From assembly GCA_023159155.1 (NCBI GenBank), contig JAJNNX010000036.1:310001-374000 (forward strand): a stretch of 64,000 bases of DNA. Direction: 5' to 3'. Source of the stretch: Ustulina deusta. Its lineage: Eukaryota; Ascomycota; Sordariomycetes; Xylariales; Xylariaceae. Each line of letters opens with the position of its first letter. The stretch's first letter is position 1. Positions 46,104-64,000 of this stretch are shown here, in pieces. A program made the translations under genes and the position numbers. The notes under the pieces were generated by a model. The model saw only the letters and a program-made list of their open reading frames with translations. It was not told where the DNA came from and did not search any database.

Positions 46104-47859
46104 TCAACGCTGCTCGTAAGTTGCTTGAACAGAGACCTTCGGTGCGGGCTGACTGAATATTGGGGGTACCGGCAGCGTCGGATCGACTTCTTTAGTAAAG
46201 GGGGACAGGTCCCTTTGTGCAGTAGCTAGTATCACTTGTAGCGCTTTATGTGTGTCGCCCGCCCCAAGGCGCTCCTCTGGCATAATTTTGAGCAGACCAC
46301 ATTTGACGAGTGTGACGATGGCCTCCACGGCTGTATTTTCAAACCATATATGGTTTTCCATCTCCCGGACTGCTTTATTCACCACGGGATGCACCTCCAT
46401 TGCCTCCTCTATGGCCTGGTTCCTTGGGTCAGACCCAGCGATAGGTCTGTAATATGCATGATCCGGGGGGTCACGCTTAATCAAACAGCTTGAAATAGCC
46501 GCGTAGTCGTACAGAAGCCATATGACAAACTCCAGCATGATGCAGCCCACTACAAAACTCGGGGTCAGTAGCCGTCAGAACTGTGAGGGTTTCAGGTGCG
46601 TGCGGCGCCCTTAAGACATTAATTTAACTCGAGGAAGCCCCTTGCTCTAGCCCTAGCTAGAATAGGGGGATAATAATGCTGAGAATTGCTTACTAGACCA
46701 GCAGTCATATTTTCGTGATCGGCTCCGCCGGTTTTTGAAGGAGTCGTGCGCCTCTGGGGCTTCATAGATAAAAGTCGAAGCCTTAGTGGTGGTGGGGTTA
46801 TCCCGAAGACCGGTTTCTGTCTTATGAGTCCTAGACACGCCAAAGTCTGCAATCTTCAAGGTGCCCAGTTTGGCAATACCATCGTTGAAGTGAAGGATGT
46901 TAGATGGCTTCAAGTCTCCATGACGGGTCTTAGCCTCATGGATCAACTCTAGGGCATGTGTAAGGCCGGTAATTTGTTGAAGAGCCCATAGGAAGACATC
47001 AGGTGTCCTTTTCAGTTCTTGTGGACCATTGGCTTCCCAAAAATCCCACAAGTCCCCGCCACCAGCCCATGGGAAGAAGATGGAACGTGCTTGGTCGCAG
47101 CAAGCCAAGGGCTTACTGAGGTGTTCATCCTCAATCATCTGGATCAGCTTCAGATTCGCCAATTCTTCACGATAATAACGGGTTTTATCAGCTTTCGGTC
47201 CATCATTGAATTGCTTGATGGCAATGCAGATTTCGCCGTGTGGCTTTGTTCCATTTTGTTAGCCTCGCTCGAGAGAAGAGAATTTGGGGTGAACTCACTT
47301 TATCCTTGATCCCCTTGTAATGTGATGGCCACAGCGTACCTTTGTACACAGTGCTGTAAGTGGTCTCAGCGACCTCTTCGTAATCAAACGGCAGCGTGGC
47401 GGACGGCTGAAGGCGAATTGGTGTTAAATTGCCGGCTTTGAAGTCCAAGATAGGTGCCCAGACAACCCACTGAGTTTTGAGGAACATATCTGCGAGATCT
47501 GTATAGTCACGGCAGTTGTTGAATGCATCGAAGCTCTTCTTGCCGCACTGTGATCGGAGGCAATTCCCATCCTTTACAAGAGGAAGATGATCGTCGGTTA
47601 GCCCATCCTGTAACAGAGCATCAATAGAATCGTATCTGCCTAGGAGTACTAGGATAGCGATGACTTTGCTTGCTCGTTGGACTTTGTCTTCCAGCTCCCA
47701 GTCCCAGCACGGGAAGAGCCATCGGGCCCAAGTGCGGGGAAGCTCGTCCTTAACACTTTCGGCCGTAATGATAGCGCGAATGATGTCCGGCCGGATATGT
47801 TTCCTCTTTGTAAGGCAGCATCGCTCCCTGGCATCCTTGAGCTCTTTACGCAAGGTCAT
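46104..47859 (-). CDS. Fungal-specific serine/threonine protein kinase
   Basis: Three exons: 47859-47299, 47243-46694 and 46549-46104, giving 518 residues. Introns of 55 and 144 nt have GTGAGT and GTAAGC donors, with phases 0 and 1. An N-terminal helical region (about 1-150) precedes the kinase domain. The glycine-loop region reads AETTYSTVYKG; the VAIK lysine is K197 (IAIK); the catalytic loop is HGDLKPSN (D297); the DFG motif is 320-322; APE is 349-351; the F-helix DCWSMGC spans the last intron. All catalytic residues are present, so it is probably active. The HGD instead of HRD loop is shared with the kinase domain at 52424-53650, and the N-termini of the two also correspond, so they are paralogues. 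The ATG at 47859 is the first in frame; the frame is open further upstream, so an extra 5' exon is possible. Confidence 0.82.
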
Positions 47860-49008: not shown

Positions 49009-50557
49009 TCAAGCATTTTGCAGCCCATCGATATAGTCTTTCAGAAATTTCCTGAGCTTTTCGAGCTCTTCCCCGGATCCAGGGACTTGAACCTTCTCGG
49101 CAAATGCAGTTCGGTCTGTCGGGCTCCGGCACTCAGCTGTTGGCGGCGGCGGCGGCGTACACCATGATTTGAGCTGGTTGAACTCTTCGTCGTTCGCCGT
49201 TAGGTCGTGTTCATCCAGGGTGTTGTTCTGTGCTCCATCCGCAAGGCGCCACTGCTTTACTCCGTGCGTGTGCACCGTCTCTGGGTCTATCTTCCACCCC
49301 TCGAGAGCGCGGCACTTGTACCGAGATGGGGTTTCTTGCTTGGTTAGCCTCACGGTGAAATGGATCTCATTGAAAACGCTTTGGGAGCCTGGGGTGTCAG
49401 TTATGGTCGACCGGAGGTAGCCACTGCGTGTCCGTCGGCCAAGCAGCCGCCAGTACCATGCTGGCTCCGTTGCCTTGACTACAGATGCATCCAATATTGT
49501 CAGTCTCGAAGCTAGGTCCTGATTTGGCCAAGGGGATTCGTACCTTCGCGCGGGAGATGATGCAGAACTGGGGTGCCGTTGACCCTCTTGAACAATCTGC
49601 TCACCGAACAATCCCAGTCCAAATACTTGCTCTTCGTGTGCTTGCTGATCTCTTGGTTGTTAAAAGATACGCCAAGCCGATGCAATTTCCCAATCATCCA
49701 CAGGAGCGTGACCAGTCCAAGAGCAGCGTCCTCACTGCCACCGACGTCGCTATGGCCTCCAAGGAACCAACACTGACTGACGCTGGTATTCTCTTCCTTG
49801 GATCGCCACACGACTGGCGCGAATTTCCTCCTCTCCTCGTTGAGTGCCAATGCTTGAAAAGCATACCGGACGTGCTCTGGAACCTGCTCCCCCACGAATG
49901 CCAGGGGTCGCGGCGGTAGTTGTGCCGCCAAGGAGGACACTGTATCCCACAGAGCCAGTGCTTTGATTTCGACTTTGCGCAGCGCGCCCGAACGCTCCAG
50001 CTTCTCAATCTTTTTTTCCAACTCCTTGGAGACGCTCTCAATTTTCTGGTTCGCCCACAGCGTGAATAAACCTCTAAGGTAGTACAGATACTCTTTTGGC
50101 ATTAGGCCTGTCTGGCTGATGAATGACGCCAAGCACTGCGCGGCAAACGCGCCACGTGAAAATCCGATCAAATAAATCTCGTCATTGTTGTCAATGAAGT
50201 TGTAATTATGTGAGAGAAAACTGTATGCCTCGCGGACTTTCGTGGAAAGTCCTACACATTGACACGATGAGTTAGTAACTCGACTACCGAGAGAGAGTTC
50301 GCTGTCAATCGCCCGGAGCTTCTAAAGAAGACGTGGGCCGTACCTCGGCCTGTCATTGCGTCAATCGCTTGGACAGGTCTGCTCGTCCCATTGCCAACAC
50401 CACTGCTGTAATAGACCATTTGGAGAGAGCCATCGCTGGCCTGAGATTGAAGACACCGTGCTAGAGTTGCAACGTTTGTTAGGGGGGAGTTGTTATTGAC
50501 CCCATCCTGCCATGTGCCGTCCAAGAAAACGAAGAGTTTCTTGCTTGCTATCTTCAT
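49009..50557 (-). CDS. DUF2235 (T6SS Tle1-like phospholipase fold) protein
   Basis: Three exons: 50557-50344, 50251-49605 and 49518-49009, giving 456 residues. Introns are 92 nt (GTACGG...GTGTAG) and 86 nt (GTGAGC...AATCAG), phases 1 and 0. The N-terminus LFVFLDGTWQD is the typical entry strand of the family. The nucleophile elbow is GFSRGAF (S103), and GGHSDVGG (H238, D240) carries the second catalytic segment. The family is an alpha/beta hydrolase group that includes bacterial type VI phospholipase effectors; fungal members are common and mostly uncharacterised. The last ~170 residues contain a proline run (CTPPPPPT) and a short charged C-terminal helix. Its place beside a kinase and a kinase-HET gene suggests a defence or incompatibility role, which is inference. 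Confidence 0.85.
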
Positions 50558-51523: not shown

Positions 51524-54500
51524 ATGGGAGCTTCGACTTATAGCTATTCTACAGATGAACATCAAGGAAACGAATTGGGATTGAGCGGAGAGCGAGACCA
51601 CCCAGGAACAGCAGGTGATCCCACCGTCCGACAAGGCACGACTTTCTTAGACTCGCAAACTCCCCAGCAGGTTCTACACAGCTCGACCATCAAACTCGCC
51701 CAATACCAAGAGACTAACATTTCATCGAGTGTTGACTCTACCATGCTCAATATTATTCGGGACGATATCACCGAGAAGCTGGGGGAGTCAAATGCGAACA
51801 AAGAAGAGCGATTTCTTATACGGAGCTCATTAGAGCCTCTGCTGACATTTCAGACTGTGGAACATATCCTTAATGAGGCGAAATGGCTGGGAGGCGGGGT
51901 CGATATTCCGACATTAGCTACGTTCATTATAGACCGGGCACTTTCGGTATTCGCTATCCTGATCAAGATGGACAGACCGCATTTGATCAAGAGCTTTCAT
52001 AGGGATGATTTCAACGAGAACATGCTACCAATCAGGTATGAGGGAGCGAGGTCCAAATGGTCTGTGAAGTCTTATTTCAACAAGGCCTCAAACGCGGCTT
52101 CCGACGCGGCTCTCCAGGAAATCTTCACTCAAGATGGATGGACGTATTCCGACGTCGCGGAATTTTGCGATACTAATCAATGGCACTTCTTTCCGCTAGT
52201 ATTTACTAAGGAAAGGTTTCGCTACAAAATTTCCTCCGATATGCGGTTACCGTATACTCCAGCTGCTATGGAGTTGAAGACCACCCATTCAAATTATAGT
52301 CGCGTCGAGAAGAGGAGCATTTACGCCGAATGCTTCGAATCCAGCATTGTAAGAATCCTTGTCCCTAGGTATCCCGGTGTCATTATTCCTTGGCTATGTC
52401 CCAAATGCACTAACTTGCAATAGCAAACAGTTTTAGACGACGATAAGAATTGGTGCGTCGCAGTCAAGAAATTAATCCATTCCAATGGAGAAGAGGCCGA
52501 GAAAGAGGCTATAGCGCTGGAAGATATACGTAAATCTTCAAACGTGCACCTCATAAAAGCCATTGCCTACATCCGCACAGAGCCGAAAGTAGAATACTCT
52601 TTCGTGTTTCCCTGGGCCGAGCATGGAAACCTTTGGGACTTCTGGGTCCGTCAAGAAGGTGCACCGAGAGATCGTGGATACTTCATCAGAGTCTTTCGAC
52701 AACTCACGTGTTTAGCAAGTGCTATTAACCAGTTATCTGATAAGGGTCTACGCCATGGCGACCTGAAGCCCGAGAACGTCGTTTGCTTCAAGACAGATGA
52801 CGGCCTGCCTGCTGGCGAGGAGAGGGAGCTTGACGCTCTGGTCAGACTAGTCATTATAGACGTCGGGCTTGCCAAAATCCACGACGAAAATACTCAGTTG
52901 CGTGCCAAAACTGACACGAGGGTCTCGACTAGGAGATATGCCGCCCCCGAGCTAGAAACCCATGAAAAATTATCACGGCGGTTCGACGTCTGGTCGATGG
53001 GATGCATATTTTTGGAATTTGCTATATGGCTAATTTACGGAAAGCAGAAGCTTCTGGCGTTCACCACTGGCCGCTTTCCTTCTGAGACTGAGAAGTTCAA
53101 GTTCTTCGTCACCAGACCGAACCACGAGCATCTTGATTCCGGCGAGGGTTCAAAGCAGATCGCCGCCCGGCACCCCACGGTGAATGGCCTTATTTCTGAG
53201 ATGCGAAACACCCCTTGGTGTTCCAATGGCACCGCGATTCGACGCCTGGTCGATCTAATATCTAACAAAATGCTAGTCGTCGACCTCAGTGATGATAACC
53301 CCCCCAAACCTGGGACAGAGAGCCAATCCACCTGCAAATGCGTCCAAGACGCTCACTTAGTATCGTCCCGCTCTGCAGAGAACGATTCCGACGCAGACCA
53401 TGAAAGTACCCCAAAACGAAACCCCTCCGCCTCAGTGCCTAAAATTCATATATCAAAGGCTCCGACAATGAGACACGCAGCCGAGAACGACAGCCCCAGC
53501 AAGCCAGGTCGCCCCTATGCCCGTGTTATAATGGAAGAATTGGAGAGCATTCTTACCGACTTGGAGAATGGGAGCATCGACGCGATTATGTTGGATGATA
53601 AGGCGACTAAGCCCGCCGAGGCTTCAGGTCTCCTCAACATTGCCCATCGTGTACGCTGAATGTGCCCTCTCCAGGACAATAAGAGCTAATTCTTCGTTCC
53701 TCCAGCACCTTGTGAGTTATTCTGAAAATATATCCTATTTTGGTCACCATGAATCATTGATCTCATTAATTCAATAGGATGTGAGTGCCCTGCACAGTCT
53801 TTTCTAATCTGGCCATGAAACGTAGCCTCTTACCAATGCATGTGCTTAGTACACTGTAAGCGACCGTGAATAAGCCCAATCATGAATTTATTAGATAGTT
53901 CAGAACTGATCAGATCCTTGGTTTTCCCGGTTATTTAGAGAGTAAGTCCCGAACTTGAGTTTCCCTGCTGAAGATGATAAAGACTGACAAGAGTTCGACT
54001 ATTAGTTCGTGAGTTCCCCTCAGTGCTGAGAGTCAATGCTGACTTATGCGTGTCTACAATGTGTGATTAACTAGTGTTCTACAGACGGTGAGTTTAATCT
54101 TGAGGTGCCGTTGTTTCCTTTACTTGTGCCAGAGAGTGTCATAACCTAACGCTTTCAATTGATGCCTTTCTCTAGCCGGTAAGCATTCCCCTCAACCCTT
54201 GGCCGCTGGACTTCAGAGAGTTTTACCACCTTGGCAATACTTTGTTATCATTAACAGTTTTTCAGTTAAACGACGATTGGGATTATGCCCCTGATGATGT
54301 CATTGCAAGAGATGTTTTCAACAGCCTTGACCTAATCCCTTCCTCACCGCGATTGAATATTCCTTCTACACTCTGCGGTCGTTGCCGTGGCCTGAGTCTT
54401 TGGTCTCCAACATGCAGTTTCTCAGATTCGCCAGGCGGATTAGCGGATAAAGCGAACCGTGAAGGCTGTGAGCTTTGTCATCTACTTTTGCGGAGCATAC

Positions 54501-56304
54501 ATGGCCGGGTTAGCCAGTCTGGCAACCAACAAGTCCACTTCTTACGAGCCGGCTGTCATCTAACCCTTAGAGATGATCGAAAGCAGATCGTGGCCAATCT
54601 TTGCACCACGCTCCGTACGTCCTAGAAACAATCACTAGTCTTCTGTATCCAGTCAAGATTTGCTGACACACAACCAGTCTCCCAAAATACCCCTCTTCAT
54701 GATGTACAGATTGGTTTCCCCGAGCTACCCGCAGCCGCCAGCGAGACACATCTCAAGATCCTGAAAGAATGGATTACAGATTGTGACCACAATCACGAGT
54801 GCTATCCTAAGGCCGACGCTTTCATCCCAACACGGCTCCTCGACATCAGGAATAAAGGCTCCGGTACTATCCAGCTTCTGGTTAACAATCAAGCCCACAG
54901 CAGGTTTGGACATTACGCGACACTCTCGCACCGATGGGGGTCACCTCAGCAGCACAACTTTTGTACGTACAAGTCGAACATCGAAGAACTAAAGCAGGGC
55001 ATAAAGATAGCAGCCCTGCCGCGCACCTTTCAGGATGCCGTGTGCATCACTTACGGCCTTGGTCTGCAATATCTCTGGATCGACTCCCTTTGCATTATCC
55101 AGGACGACCCTTTCGATTGGGAGACAGAGTCCAAACTTATGGAGCGTGTGTTTAGCTCAGCTTACTGCACTATCGCCGCGAGCTGTTCTTTCGGGAGCGG
55201 AGATGGCTTTCTTAAACCGCGCCCGGCGAGACGATCTGTCATGATGCAGGGGCTCCAGGACTCTGATGCAGCGTACTTTGTGTGCGAGACTATTGACGAC
55301 TTCTTTCGGGATGTGGAACAAAGCGAGCTCAACCAGCGCGGTTGGGTTTTGCAGGAGCGGGCCCTGTCGCGGCGTACAATCTACTTCACGGAGAGACAAT
55401 CCTACTGGGAATGTGGTGGAGGGGTGCGGTGCGAGACGATGACCAGAATGAAGAAGTAGGTGTTTCTGTTATTACCCCTGTCTACCGTTCTGATTTCATC
55501 ACACCATTCTCTATCCGTGTACTATGTATAACGTGTCGGAGCATTGACTTGGAGATTCAACATAGTCGCAAGGCATCTTTCCTCGGTGATCCCAACTTTC
55601 CGCGATCGGTCGACCAGTTCGCCAAGGGATTGAGAATAGAAATCTTCCAAGATCTCTATGAGCGATATTCGAGACTAGCCTTGTCATACCCCTCGGATCG
55701 ACCTATAGCTATTAGAGGGCTCGAGAGTAGACTCATCAACACGTTCGGCACCCGCGGCGGCGTCGGCATCTTCGACATCTATCTGCACAGGTCCCTGCTC
55801 TGGCAGCGAGCCGGCGACACCCTTAAGTCTATCACGAGTTTCCGCGATGCACCAGTCCCCTCGTGGTCGTGGATGGCCTACGACGGCCCGGTCCGCTACC
55901 TGACCGTCCCCTTCGGGGAGGTTACGTGGTCCGAGAACATCATCTCGCCATTTTCCAAGGACAGCAGCCGAAATGCTGTGGTGAGCGGAGCTTTCAGGGG
56001 TGACAAAGTTATCGCGACCTCTCCACTAGAACTGGAAGCGCCGGTTTGGAACCTTCTTGACGCTGAGAGTGGGCAGAGAATCATGGACGACCCTGGCAGA
56101 GCTTTCGACCAGCCTATCCAGTGTGTTGTTCTTGGGAAGAGCAAGATGCCACCGGTGGATGAGTCCCAGGTGCACTGGGTGCTATTGGTTCACCCAAGAA
56201 AGGTTGCCGACAATGTCGCTTTGTATGAGAGGGCCGGGGTAGGTGTCCTGAGGAAACGCCACATTGCGTTTGATGGGCCTCAGGAAAGAAGAAGGATCCA
56301 GTAG
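51524..56304 (+). CDS. Protein kinase-HET domain fusion with micro-exons
   Basis: Model: exons 51524-52348, 52424-53650, seven micro-exons (53706-53711, 53778-53780, 53850-53855, 53939-53941, 54006-54008, 54085-54087, 54176-54178), then 54266-54614, 54678-55455 and 55566-56304. The sum is 3945 nt, or 1314 residues, with all phases consistent. Residues 1-275 match the N-terminal region of the kinase at 46-48 kb. The kinase domain has VAVKK (K290), HGDLKPEN (H386-D388), a DVG in place of DFG (D421) and AAPE (E451); the glycine loop lacks its glycines. A Ser- and Lys-rich linker leads to the micro-exon peptide HLDYTRFTP. The HET domain (heterokaryon incompatibility; controls cell death between unlike hyphae) starts near 887 with YATLSHRWG, then YLWIDSLCIIQDD, AYCTIAASC and RGWVLQERALSRRTIYF (about 1031). 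If the micro-exons are not used, these would be two adjacent genes, a kinase ending at 53659 and a HET gene from about 54266. I prefer one gene. Confidence 0.7.
53651..54265 (+). other. Micro-exon chain joining kinase and HET parts
   Basis: Eight introns (55, 66, 69, 83, 64, 76, 88 and 87 nt) follow each other and are separated by exons of only 6, 3, 6, 3, 3, 3 and 3 nt: CACCTT, GAT, TACACT, AGA, TTC, ACG, CCG. Seven of the eight donors fit GTRAGY (GTGAGT, GTAAGC, GTAAGT) and the first is GTACGC; every acceptor is YAG or AAG-like. Each micro-exon is a whole number of codons in phase 0, and the frame that leaves the kinase exon enters the HET exon correctly. Confidence 0.68.
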
Positions 56305-61565: not shown

Positions 61566-62072
61566 CTGTGCGGCTATCCGCTAACGGTACAGAATCAGCT
61601 CAATTGTTTTCTGATGTGCCAGCCGCAGAAATGTCAATACAGGACCCTTAATTAGGGGTATGGAAGAGCTTGCACCCTTGCAGCTACTGCTCCCTGGCCA
61701 AAGGCTGCCTCAAAAGCGGCAAAGTCTAACTGCACCTCTTCCGAAGTACAGAAGCCGGACAGGTTTATAGTGCTTTTTGCGTAACTAATTGCATAGGTAG
61801 CTATTCTAACTTCTTATATACTAAGTAAATACCTATATTAATAAATTTGTAACAACCCTGCTATATTAAACTAGCTAATATAGTAGTTTGCTATAGTATT
61901 GTAGTAAACATAGGTTTGTTCGATAAGAAATTAATGTTATGAATAGATCTGCTTTTTGTATATTTGTAGCACTTATTAAAAAAAAAACTTTTATATAACT
62001 AGTTCTAAAAACTAGCTATATACTTAAATTAAAAAAAAAAAAAAAAACTATTTAACTATAAAATATAACAAA
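61566..62072. other. Transition into the right-hand A+T-rich repeat
   Basis: Normal composition to about 61.8 kb, then increasingly A+T-rich with TAGCTA words. No gene was recognised. The bases before the LTR (62068-62072) read ACAAA; the partner duplication would lie outside the window. Confidence 0.45.
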
Positions 62073-64000
62073 TATAACAGTCAGTACAGTCTTAGCAAGA
62101 CCTGCAAAGACTCTAGACCCACATAGCAATAAAATAAGAAGTCTACGTACGGACCAACCTATAACTCTGCAGCTATATATATAAAGTCTATATCTACCTA
62201 CTCTATAAACTCTAACTTCTTGTTTTTTTTTCTTTTTTTTTTAGTTTAAAGTTTTTATTTATAATATTAATAAACTAGCTATAAAAACTTTATTAAACTA
62301 ATTATAACACTACTTTAAGCTTACTAATTATTTATTAATAAATATTTAATAAATATATATTTTTTATTTTGCTATAATTAATAAAATATAAATAAACTTT
62401 TTTTTTAAGTTATATATTTAATATAAAAGATTATATATTTTATAATATAAACCTAACTTTAATATAATTTTAATAAAACTTTTAATTTTTATATTACTTA
62501 AAAATTAATAACTTATAAAAAACTTAACTTTAAATATTTTTATTTTATTTTTAGTTTTTAAATAATTAAAATAGTTTTAATTTTTAAATATAGCTAGCTT
62601 TTTATTATTAAATAATTTTAAAAATTTTTTTTTTATAAAAAAAAAAAAAATTAAGTATTAAACTTTTTTATAAACGTTTTAAATAAACTAATATTTAAAA
62701 AAAAATCTAAAAAAATTAAAAAATTAAAACTTAAAAAAGCAAAATCTAAACTAAAGCTAAAATAACCTAAAATAAATAATATATTTAAAAATATATTAAA
62801 AAATATTATAGCTATATAAACTTATAATTTTATATTAGTTTTAATAAAACTTTTTTAATAAATAAAAAAAAAAAATATTAATTTTTTAATACGTTTATTT
62901 TAATACTTTTAAAAAATAACTATAATTTAATAATAAAAAATATATTTAAAAGTATTAATTTTAAATTTTTTAGTTTTATTATTTTATTTTCTAACGCTTT
63001 AAACCTTATTTATATTAAAAAAACTAAAATATAAAAAATTAATTTTAGCAAGTTTATAAAAAATAAAGCTTTATTTAATAACTAAATTTATAAACTAGTA
63101 AAAAAACTAAGCAAAAATATTATTATATTTTGAACTAAAAATAGCTAATTTTAATATATTATAAATTAATTAAAAAAATATATTAAAAAATTAATAAACA
63201 TATATTTTTATTTAATTAAAAAATTATTTAATAATATTACTAAAATAATTTAAGTTTTATTAATAATTTATTATAATTTTAATTAAATAATTATTATTTA
63301 TAAAATATTTTAAATTTATATATATAAAACTAATAAAAATATTAATAAATTTATTTTTATATTTAATAGTTTAGCTTAAAAATATTAATTTATTAAGTTA
63401 TAATAAAAATATAAATTATAGAATTATTTTTATATAAAATTAAAAAAAAATTTATATAAAATTTATATAAATTTAAATATTTTTTATAAATTATTTATTA
63501 ATAAAATTATTAAATTAATATATAATATTAAATAAACTTATAAAAATTATTAATAAACTAAACTTATTAGTTTAATTAAACAAAAATCTAATTTAAATAA
63601 TTAAATTTTTAATTAACTTTAAAAATTTTAAAATATTTATTTTAAAATAATTAAAATAAGTACTAACTATAAAAAAAAAAAAAACCTATTAAAATAATAA
63701 AACTTGTTTTAATTATAATAAAAAAAAATATTTATTAATTAATTATTTTAACTAAAAACTTAAAGTTTTAAATATTTAACTAGTAAAAAAAATCTATAAT
63801 AAAAATAGCTTTAATAGTTTATTTAACTTAAAAAATAAATATAACTAATAAAATTTTTTTTATTAGTTTTTTTATTTATTTTAATTAAAATATATAACTA
63901 AAATAAATTAATAATATTAAAATAAAAACTTTAATTTTATATAATATTAAAACTTATATTTTTTTAATAATTAGTTATAAATTTATATAATAAATTAAAT
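62073..64000 (+). mobile_element. Partial LTR retroelement X, copy 3 (inverted relative to copies 1 and 2)
   Basis: 62073-62309 is the reverse complement of the X LTR (TATAACAGTCAG...AATTATAACA). Beyond it, 62310 to the window end reverse-complements the X body next to LTR C and LTR D (compare 36600-37027). The plus strand is A-rich, as expected if this copy runs in the opposite direction. It is RIP-degraded, with no coding frame. The element runs off the right edge. Confidence 0.82.

Follow-up and report, generated by a model that had tools for sequence, protein, structure and literature searches.

The kinase-HET gene of Ustulina deusta described here is in all likelihood a single tol-like gene in which the tether from the kinase to the HET part ends in nine residues, HLDYTRFTP, that are spread over seven consecutive exons, none longer than two codons. 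It lies in a window of 64,000 nt, the whole stretch of DNA that was analysed, from a genus of which Kretzschmaria is a synonym. Judged from genomic sequence, it is very probable that the micro-exons are genuinely coding and belong to an old linker, rather than to one created when two genes were recently fused. A run of seven exons of 3-6 nt with a match in a deep paralog constitutes an extreme test of spliceosomal exon recognition: it leaves no room for exon definition, exon-bound regulators or paired spliceosomes, and the order of intron removal can thus be studied directly.

A reading with 12 exons from 51524 to 56304 closes as a frame of 1,314 aa plus stop codon (Table 1). Exon 1 comprises 275 codons and is without match to any Pfam family. 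The predicted protein carries both domains that characterise tol-like proteins, PF00069 (E 1.9e-20) and PF06985 (E 4.6e-30), and shares domain architecture and sequence with tol-like kinase-HET proteins; Pfam shows kinase and HET only, and not the composition of a NACHT-ankyrin receptor. Both domains would be part of one polypeptide, with the frame closing through the array, and would be fused as they are in the homologs. The putative array consists of five exons of 3 nt and two of 6 nt, and the introns measure 55, 66, 69, 83, 64, 76, 88, and 87 nt in this order. A preliminary description of the region had placed seven acceptor-codon-donor units between the kinase and the HET exon, separated by eight introns of 55-88 nt, and had the kinase frame enter the HET exon by way of whole codons. 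Each unit is present to the base at its position, the intron lengths were measured as claimed, and all micro-exons are whole codons entered in phase 0. The last intron of the array (54179-54265, 87 nt) is free of in-frame stop codons, so that its retention would add 29 residues and leave the protein unbroken.

Table 1 Predicted exons of the kinase-HET gene and its micro-exon array (window coordinates)
Feature	Position	Strand	Basis
Exon 1, kinase-HET gene	51524..52348	+	Start taken as ATG at 51524 (inferred)
Exon 2, protein kinase domain and tail	52424..53650	+	Pkinase E 1.9e-20; ends ...LLNIAHR in phase 0
Micro-exon array, 7 micro-exons and 8 introns	53651..54265	+	Splice sites, frame, chance tests, open parses
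Micro-exon 1, CACCTT, His-Leu	53706..53711	+	HRHL in P0003, P0005, P0006; HRGL in P0012
Micro-exon 2, GAT, Asp	53778..53780	+	DYT motif in relatives
Micro-exon 3, TACACT, Tyr-Thr	53850..53855	+	DYT and [DE]Y motifs in relatives
Micro-exon 4, AGA, Arg	53939..53941	+	AGA also in the C91 paralog; EYR in P0033, P0041, P0055
Micro-exon 5, TTC, Phe	54006..54008	+	RF or RY in P0033, P0041, P0055
Micro-exon 6, ACG, Thr	54085..54087	+	RFTP in P0033
Micro-exon 7, CCG, Pro	54176..54178	+	Pro commonest five before the conserved Trp in listed homologs
First HET-side exon, LNDDWDY..., C..C motifs	54266..54614	+	Reading frame
HET domain exon	54678..55455	+	HET E 4.6e-30; frame
Last exon, C-terminal part to stop codon	55566..56304	+	Reading frame

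The splice signals of the array are regular. The window micro-exons are followed by the donors GTGAGT (four times), GTAAGC (twice), and GTAAGT (once), and the donor that opens the array is GTACGC. Over the 22 introns of four loci of this genome (the window and the paralogous loci C91, C41, and C31 described below), the branch-point-like motif CTRAY is located 8-40 nt from the acceptor in 14 (shuffled mean 3.5; 14 reached in 0 of 2,000 shuffles) and the looser YTNAY in 21 (shuffled mean 12.7; 21 likewise reached in 0 of 2,000); the strict motif is missing from both C31 introns, which are weak. Parses leading from the kinase exon to the HET exon were enumerated with introns of 44-100 nt, the detector donors given below plus the first donor, any AG acceptor and exons of at most 60 nt, a design which excludes longer introns such as the join that skips all units. 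For the window, 564 paths were obtained, two of which are in frame and open, namely HLDYTRFTP and HLDYTRSSTISSVLQTP; when the intron limits were widened to 40-130 nt, 10 of 2,790 were open, and all of these contain DYT and the final P. At C91 a single path of 340 is open (NTYRHVN) and at C41 one of 20 (YNP).

Chance does not readily produce such a series. A train detector was defined as AG, 3 or 6 nt and GT[AG]NG[TCA], with gaps of 44-100 nt, and scores the window array as a train of seven. In 300 dinucleotide shuffles of the whole window, searched on both strands, the longest train was one unit in 143 cases, two in 154, and three in 3. In 14 of its 32 stretches of 2 kb the window has a G+C content below 0.23, and shuffling of the 615-nt stretch itself is therefore the fairer test; in 20,000 such shuffles the longest train never exceeded three, a value reached in 8. 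The preliminary claim that seven such units are very unlikely by chance is borne out by these values. In a wider scan with units of 3, 6, and 9 nt, 68 sequences with about 252,000 unique 31-mer positions were searched, and trains of at least four occurred at three kinase-HET loci only, those of the window, C91, and C41, each of which is present several times among the 68 sequences. At C91 and C41 one of the units detected is in fact where the kinase exon ends, and the scores of 8 and 4 correspond to seven and three micro-exons, respectively. In the same sequences, frame-breaking unit lengths (2, 5, 8 and 4, 7, 10 nt) gave trains of at most three, as did the reversed sequences. The scan amounts to about 0.25 of 56 Mb of genome, and since about 157,000 of the 188,000 unique positions outside the window belong to kinase and HET loci, it is not a random sample of the genome and leaves room for trains elsewhere. 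Trains of at least two were absent from three NACHT/ankyrin loci of this genome and from the loci L062 and L064.

Searches of the same genome with the kinase and HET parts revealed further kinase-HET pairs on C91, C41, and C86 and HET genes on C31 and C84. The C91 locus (L060), whose HET exon is 48% identical to that of the window, has seven single-codon exons, AAT ACT TAT AGA CAT GTG AAT (N-T-Y-R-H-V-N), between the end of the kinase exon and the HET exon. The four micro-exons closest to the HET exon have the same codon offsets in both genes, with R-F-T-P in the window and R-H-V-N in C91, and the fifth encodes YT in the window versus Y in C91. At C41 (L061), three micro-exons, TAC AAT CCC (Y-N-P), precede an exon that begins with RTSKLRDVW. 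The C86 locus (L062) has no micro-exons: its linker ADYTLPPLEDWEY is uninterrupted, and the stretch ...TRTTKADYTLPPLEDWEYPVD forms a single open frame. The HET gene on C31 (L063, C31:902500-908500) retains two candidate units, GCG and TTT, before LNDIW, on the reverse strand at about 2245-2400; no match to the kinase domain at E of at most 1 was obtained within 6 kb, and one chance match outside this domain (E 0.28) lies on the opposite strand. The stretch before this gene is AT-rich, and an open frame further upstream resembles, by motif, what we take to be an aminoglycoside-phosphotransferase-type kinase. At C84 (L064) a HET domain is present, with neither a kinase match in 6 kb nor a train. 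Thus, one genome offers a natural series of seven, three, two candidate, and zero micro-exons, in which repeated gain can be weighed against block loss.

Residues like those encoded by the micro-exons recur in database proteins of other fungi. Two homolog searches, for which 120 of 456 and 120 of 439 matches were listed, yielded 224 proteins together, and a search limited to residues 640-780 gave 12 proteins, all within the first of these listings. Kinase and HET Pfam domains occur together in 117 of the 120 homologs listed in the first search; according to precomputed domains, the exceptions are P0055 and P0066 (HET without kinase) and P0084 (kinase without HET). With a small profile, the point at which the HET side begins could be located in 186 of these 224 listed proteins, and the 14 preceding residues were scored; as the listed homologs are interrelated, the following counts are not independent. 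The motif [DE]Y[RTN] occurs before the HET side in 24 of the 186 and is absent from the other 162 (three control windows: 0, 1, 1), and DYT occurs in 15 (controls 0, 0, 0). The enrichment of [DE]Y (34, versus 1, 12, and 11) is no more than moderate over two of the three controls, and Tyr alone (74, versus 37, 41, and 73) is not enriched over the farthest one. Proline is the commonest residue five positions before the conserved Trp (50 of 186 listed, 29 of them outside the DYxxP class).

Several of these junctions can be aligned with individual arrays, for which length differences of one or two residues between the window, C91, and the one-piece linkers are needed. EYRFTP, EYRFEP, and EYRYTP directly before L (P0033, P0041, and P0055) match micro-exons 3-7, and the C86-type DYTLP-PL, two residues shorter, matches D-YT and P-L. 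Y-N-P-RTSK of C41 is matched by DEYN (P0077, P0082, P0086, P0107, and P0110) and TYNVPQLSK (P0114), all in the 27-row tree group that holds C41 and C31, and by EYPRTSL of P0095, a member of C41's own clade; T-Y-R-H of C91 is matched by QYTHT-L (P0104) and TYTHA-F (P0172). Together with HRHL and HRGL (Table 1), these motif classes provide each window micro-exon with a counterpart in some database protein. The whole HLDYTRFTP was found in 0 of the 186 listed junctions, among which are those of all 15 database proteins that belong to the clade of the window, and TYRHVN likewise in 0 of 186. On the combined evidence of array, frame, open parses and homologs, the earlier proposal of a real micro-exon linker between kinase and HET appears well founded.

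The position of the encoded residues within the protein can be approached by the predicted fold of P0055 (843 aa, alignment of 70 rows, mean pLDDT 84.5). EYRYTPL at 233-239 is located where a tether of low confidence (213-233, below 50) meets the well-predicted HET part, which makes it probable that the micro-exons specify the final residues of the hinge. Since the block 231-240 has a mean pLDDT of 61, the fold shows no more than that the tether ends in this motif.

Short fungal introns are thought to be recognised across the intron, and a study by Romfo from 2000 reportedly deals with this subject in fission yeast. In the mechanism that we propose, the spliceosome would pair the sites across each short intron, and given such intron definition together with strong donors and close branch points, the length of an exon would be irrelevant to its splicing. 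Two spliceosomes cannot share an exon of 3 nt, and the introns would hence be removed one after another. Inclusion of the micro-exons would be mainly constitutive, and the array would go back to a common ancestor of several kinase-HET subfamilies, some branches of which would later have lost the introns as a block. A further step, that the array is ancestral to the major kinase-HET subfamilies and was retained because skipping of single codons tunes the hinge between kinase and HET, we consider unlikely; if true, few known conserved series of codon-sized exons would be longer, and automated gene models would have overlooked this one.

Regulated skipping of codons is possible and compatible with the 3n lengths. 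In its full form, with micro-exons singly included or skipped to give many linker variants, it is an unlikely account, which may coexist with the constitutive array. By arithmetic, all 128 subsets of the seven units remain in frame, and NACHT-ANK genes of Tuber provide a precedent, as far as the relevant passages of three articles go (PMC4986451, PMC3689799, PMC10197012). Yet the window micro-exon donors are uniformly GTRAG[TC], and a one-piece version of similar length in L062, and probably in other fungi, points to a sequence that is needed as such.

A second alternative holds that the 615 nt are removed as one intron and that the units serve as decoy or recursive splice sites and encode nothing. 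The product would be in frame, as every unit is 3n, and several database proteins read this way: P0001, which is 97% identical over 89% of the query and passes from HR directly into LNDDW, P0004 and P0008 of the window's clade, and 15 of the 26 listed database proteins of the C91 clade, in which ...A[LM] leads straight into the HET side. Direct splicing from 53650 to 54266, the outcome which the preliminary description had set against its array, is therefore implied by the protein model of P0001; we read such models as the product of gene predictors that handle exons of at most 15 nt poorly (compare PMC8831610). Real skipping would give the same picture, and if the models were based on RNA, skipping would be real. 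Decoys, however, need neither lengths in multiples of three nor residues that are found in relatives, whereas the open parse is nearly unique at three loci, residues like the encoded ones recur, and P0003, P0005, and P0006 share the HL that micro-exon 1 encodes. Complete skipping is thus very unlikely. In P0125, P0130, and P0131 of the C91 clade, the array region is filled differently across the gene models of the species, two of which apparently read into the first intron, and this suggests that predictors struggle at the array. The gene models of a large fungal recognition family may lack residues at the joint of kinase and HET.

A recent splitting of the linker by stacked invading introns (stwintrons or introner-like copies) is extremely unlikely, although stwintron propagation is described for Xylariaceae and Hypoxylaceae in the relevant part of PMC12403724. 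The intron bodies are no more alike, within the array or between paralogs, than shuffled ones (best local score 19 versus a shuffled mean maximum of 21), a genome search in which very common words are skipped turned up the 731-nt stretch only once, and the array is common to deep paralogs. In a stwintron, an inner intron splits a splice element of an outer one; at the level of un-nested parses, every unit carries both a donor and an acceptor, each complete. Tandem duplication and introner copying were rejected as far as tested, on the dissimilarity of the intron bodies and the single copy returned by that search. The alternative of two separate genes, with a kinase gene that stops at codon 53657-53659, in frame if intron 1 remains unspliced, and a HET gene that starts in the intervening stretch, has a negligible probability, because the first HET-side exon has no in-frame ATG and requires an upstream exon, the next exon has none until the middle of the HET core, and both domains are joined in nearly all listed homologs.

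The history of the array was approached with a quick tree of 189 HET cores, rooted at the midpoint, in which 65 of the 186 inner branches are starred. A branch with an SH-aLRT value of 97 separates the window, C41, and C31 from C91 and C86. Micro-exon carriers are thus found on both sides of the main split, and the non-carrier C86 groups with C91; C84, for which neither a train nor a kinase half was found, joins the side of the window by a branch that is long and unsure. The simplest reading of these sequences is an ancestral array that was lost as a block in the C86 line, the alternative being two or more independent gains. The preliminary description had offered two modes of birth. Gain of introns inside a pre-existing linker is possible, and since the window array matches that of a paralog across the main HET split, it would have occurred early or twice. 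Intron-mediated joining of two genes is not supported, given the fusion in 117 of 120 listed homologs and the linker of L062 in one frame, and a recent two-gene fusion is rejected on the same grounds. With a midpoint root and the DNA of one species, the ancestral array is something that we infer.

Tandem symmetrical micro-exons are also known from the MEGs of Schistosoma, where secreted proteins are encoded largely by such exons, whereas in the window they account for 27 of 3,945 nt. Closer to the present case, alternative splicing of micro-exons of 3 bp or of codon size is a source of diversity in the NACHT-ANK genes, or NLR sensor domains, of Tuber melanosporum, according to the passages on this subject in PMC4986451, PMC3689799, and PMC10197012, two of which credit the work to Iotti 2012. 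As portrayed there, these nank genes likewise have several codon-sized micro-exons in a fungal gene family tied to self/nonself recognition. They differ in encoding NACHT-ankyrin instead of kinase-HET proteins, and in being alternatively spliced with "multiple" or "tens of" micro-exons, which one citing review relates to diversification of the sensor domain; the present array has seven, lies in a linker between domains and has a match in a paralog. In Trichoderma virens, another filamentous ascomycete, one micro-exon acts as a glucose-dependent switch in the transcription factor Xlr2, and the section of the article concerned states that functional micro-exons were undescribed in filamentous fungi before (PMC11121469); Xlr2 has a single micro-exon and the window an array. 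Plant micro-exon clusters, e.g., in APC11 and VPS55, are described in the pertinent part of PMC8831610 as conserved tiny exons that are often missed in annotation, with intron-free copies of such genes in some lineages; the clusters mentioned there comprise single or two adjacent micro-exons, compared to seven in the window. No micro-exon array in kinase-HET genes was found in the literature searched, which covers few subscription journals. Codon-sized micro-exons as such have already been reported for Tuber, and the new element would be their arrangement as an array in another recognition family.

In the window, the kinase-HET gene is part of a gene island flanked by AT-rich blocks (14000-40000 and 62000-64000, G+C about 0.09-0.23), which presumably reflect repeat-induced point mutation. 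A second kinase homolog, in two pieces and 31-37% identical to the kinase exon, is located about 5 kb away on the minus strand (46290-47228) and contains no micro-exon train of at least three. The kinase-HET gene is adjoined by a Tle1-like phospholipase-type domain (PF09994, E 1.1e-46) at 49512-50321, also on the minus strand.
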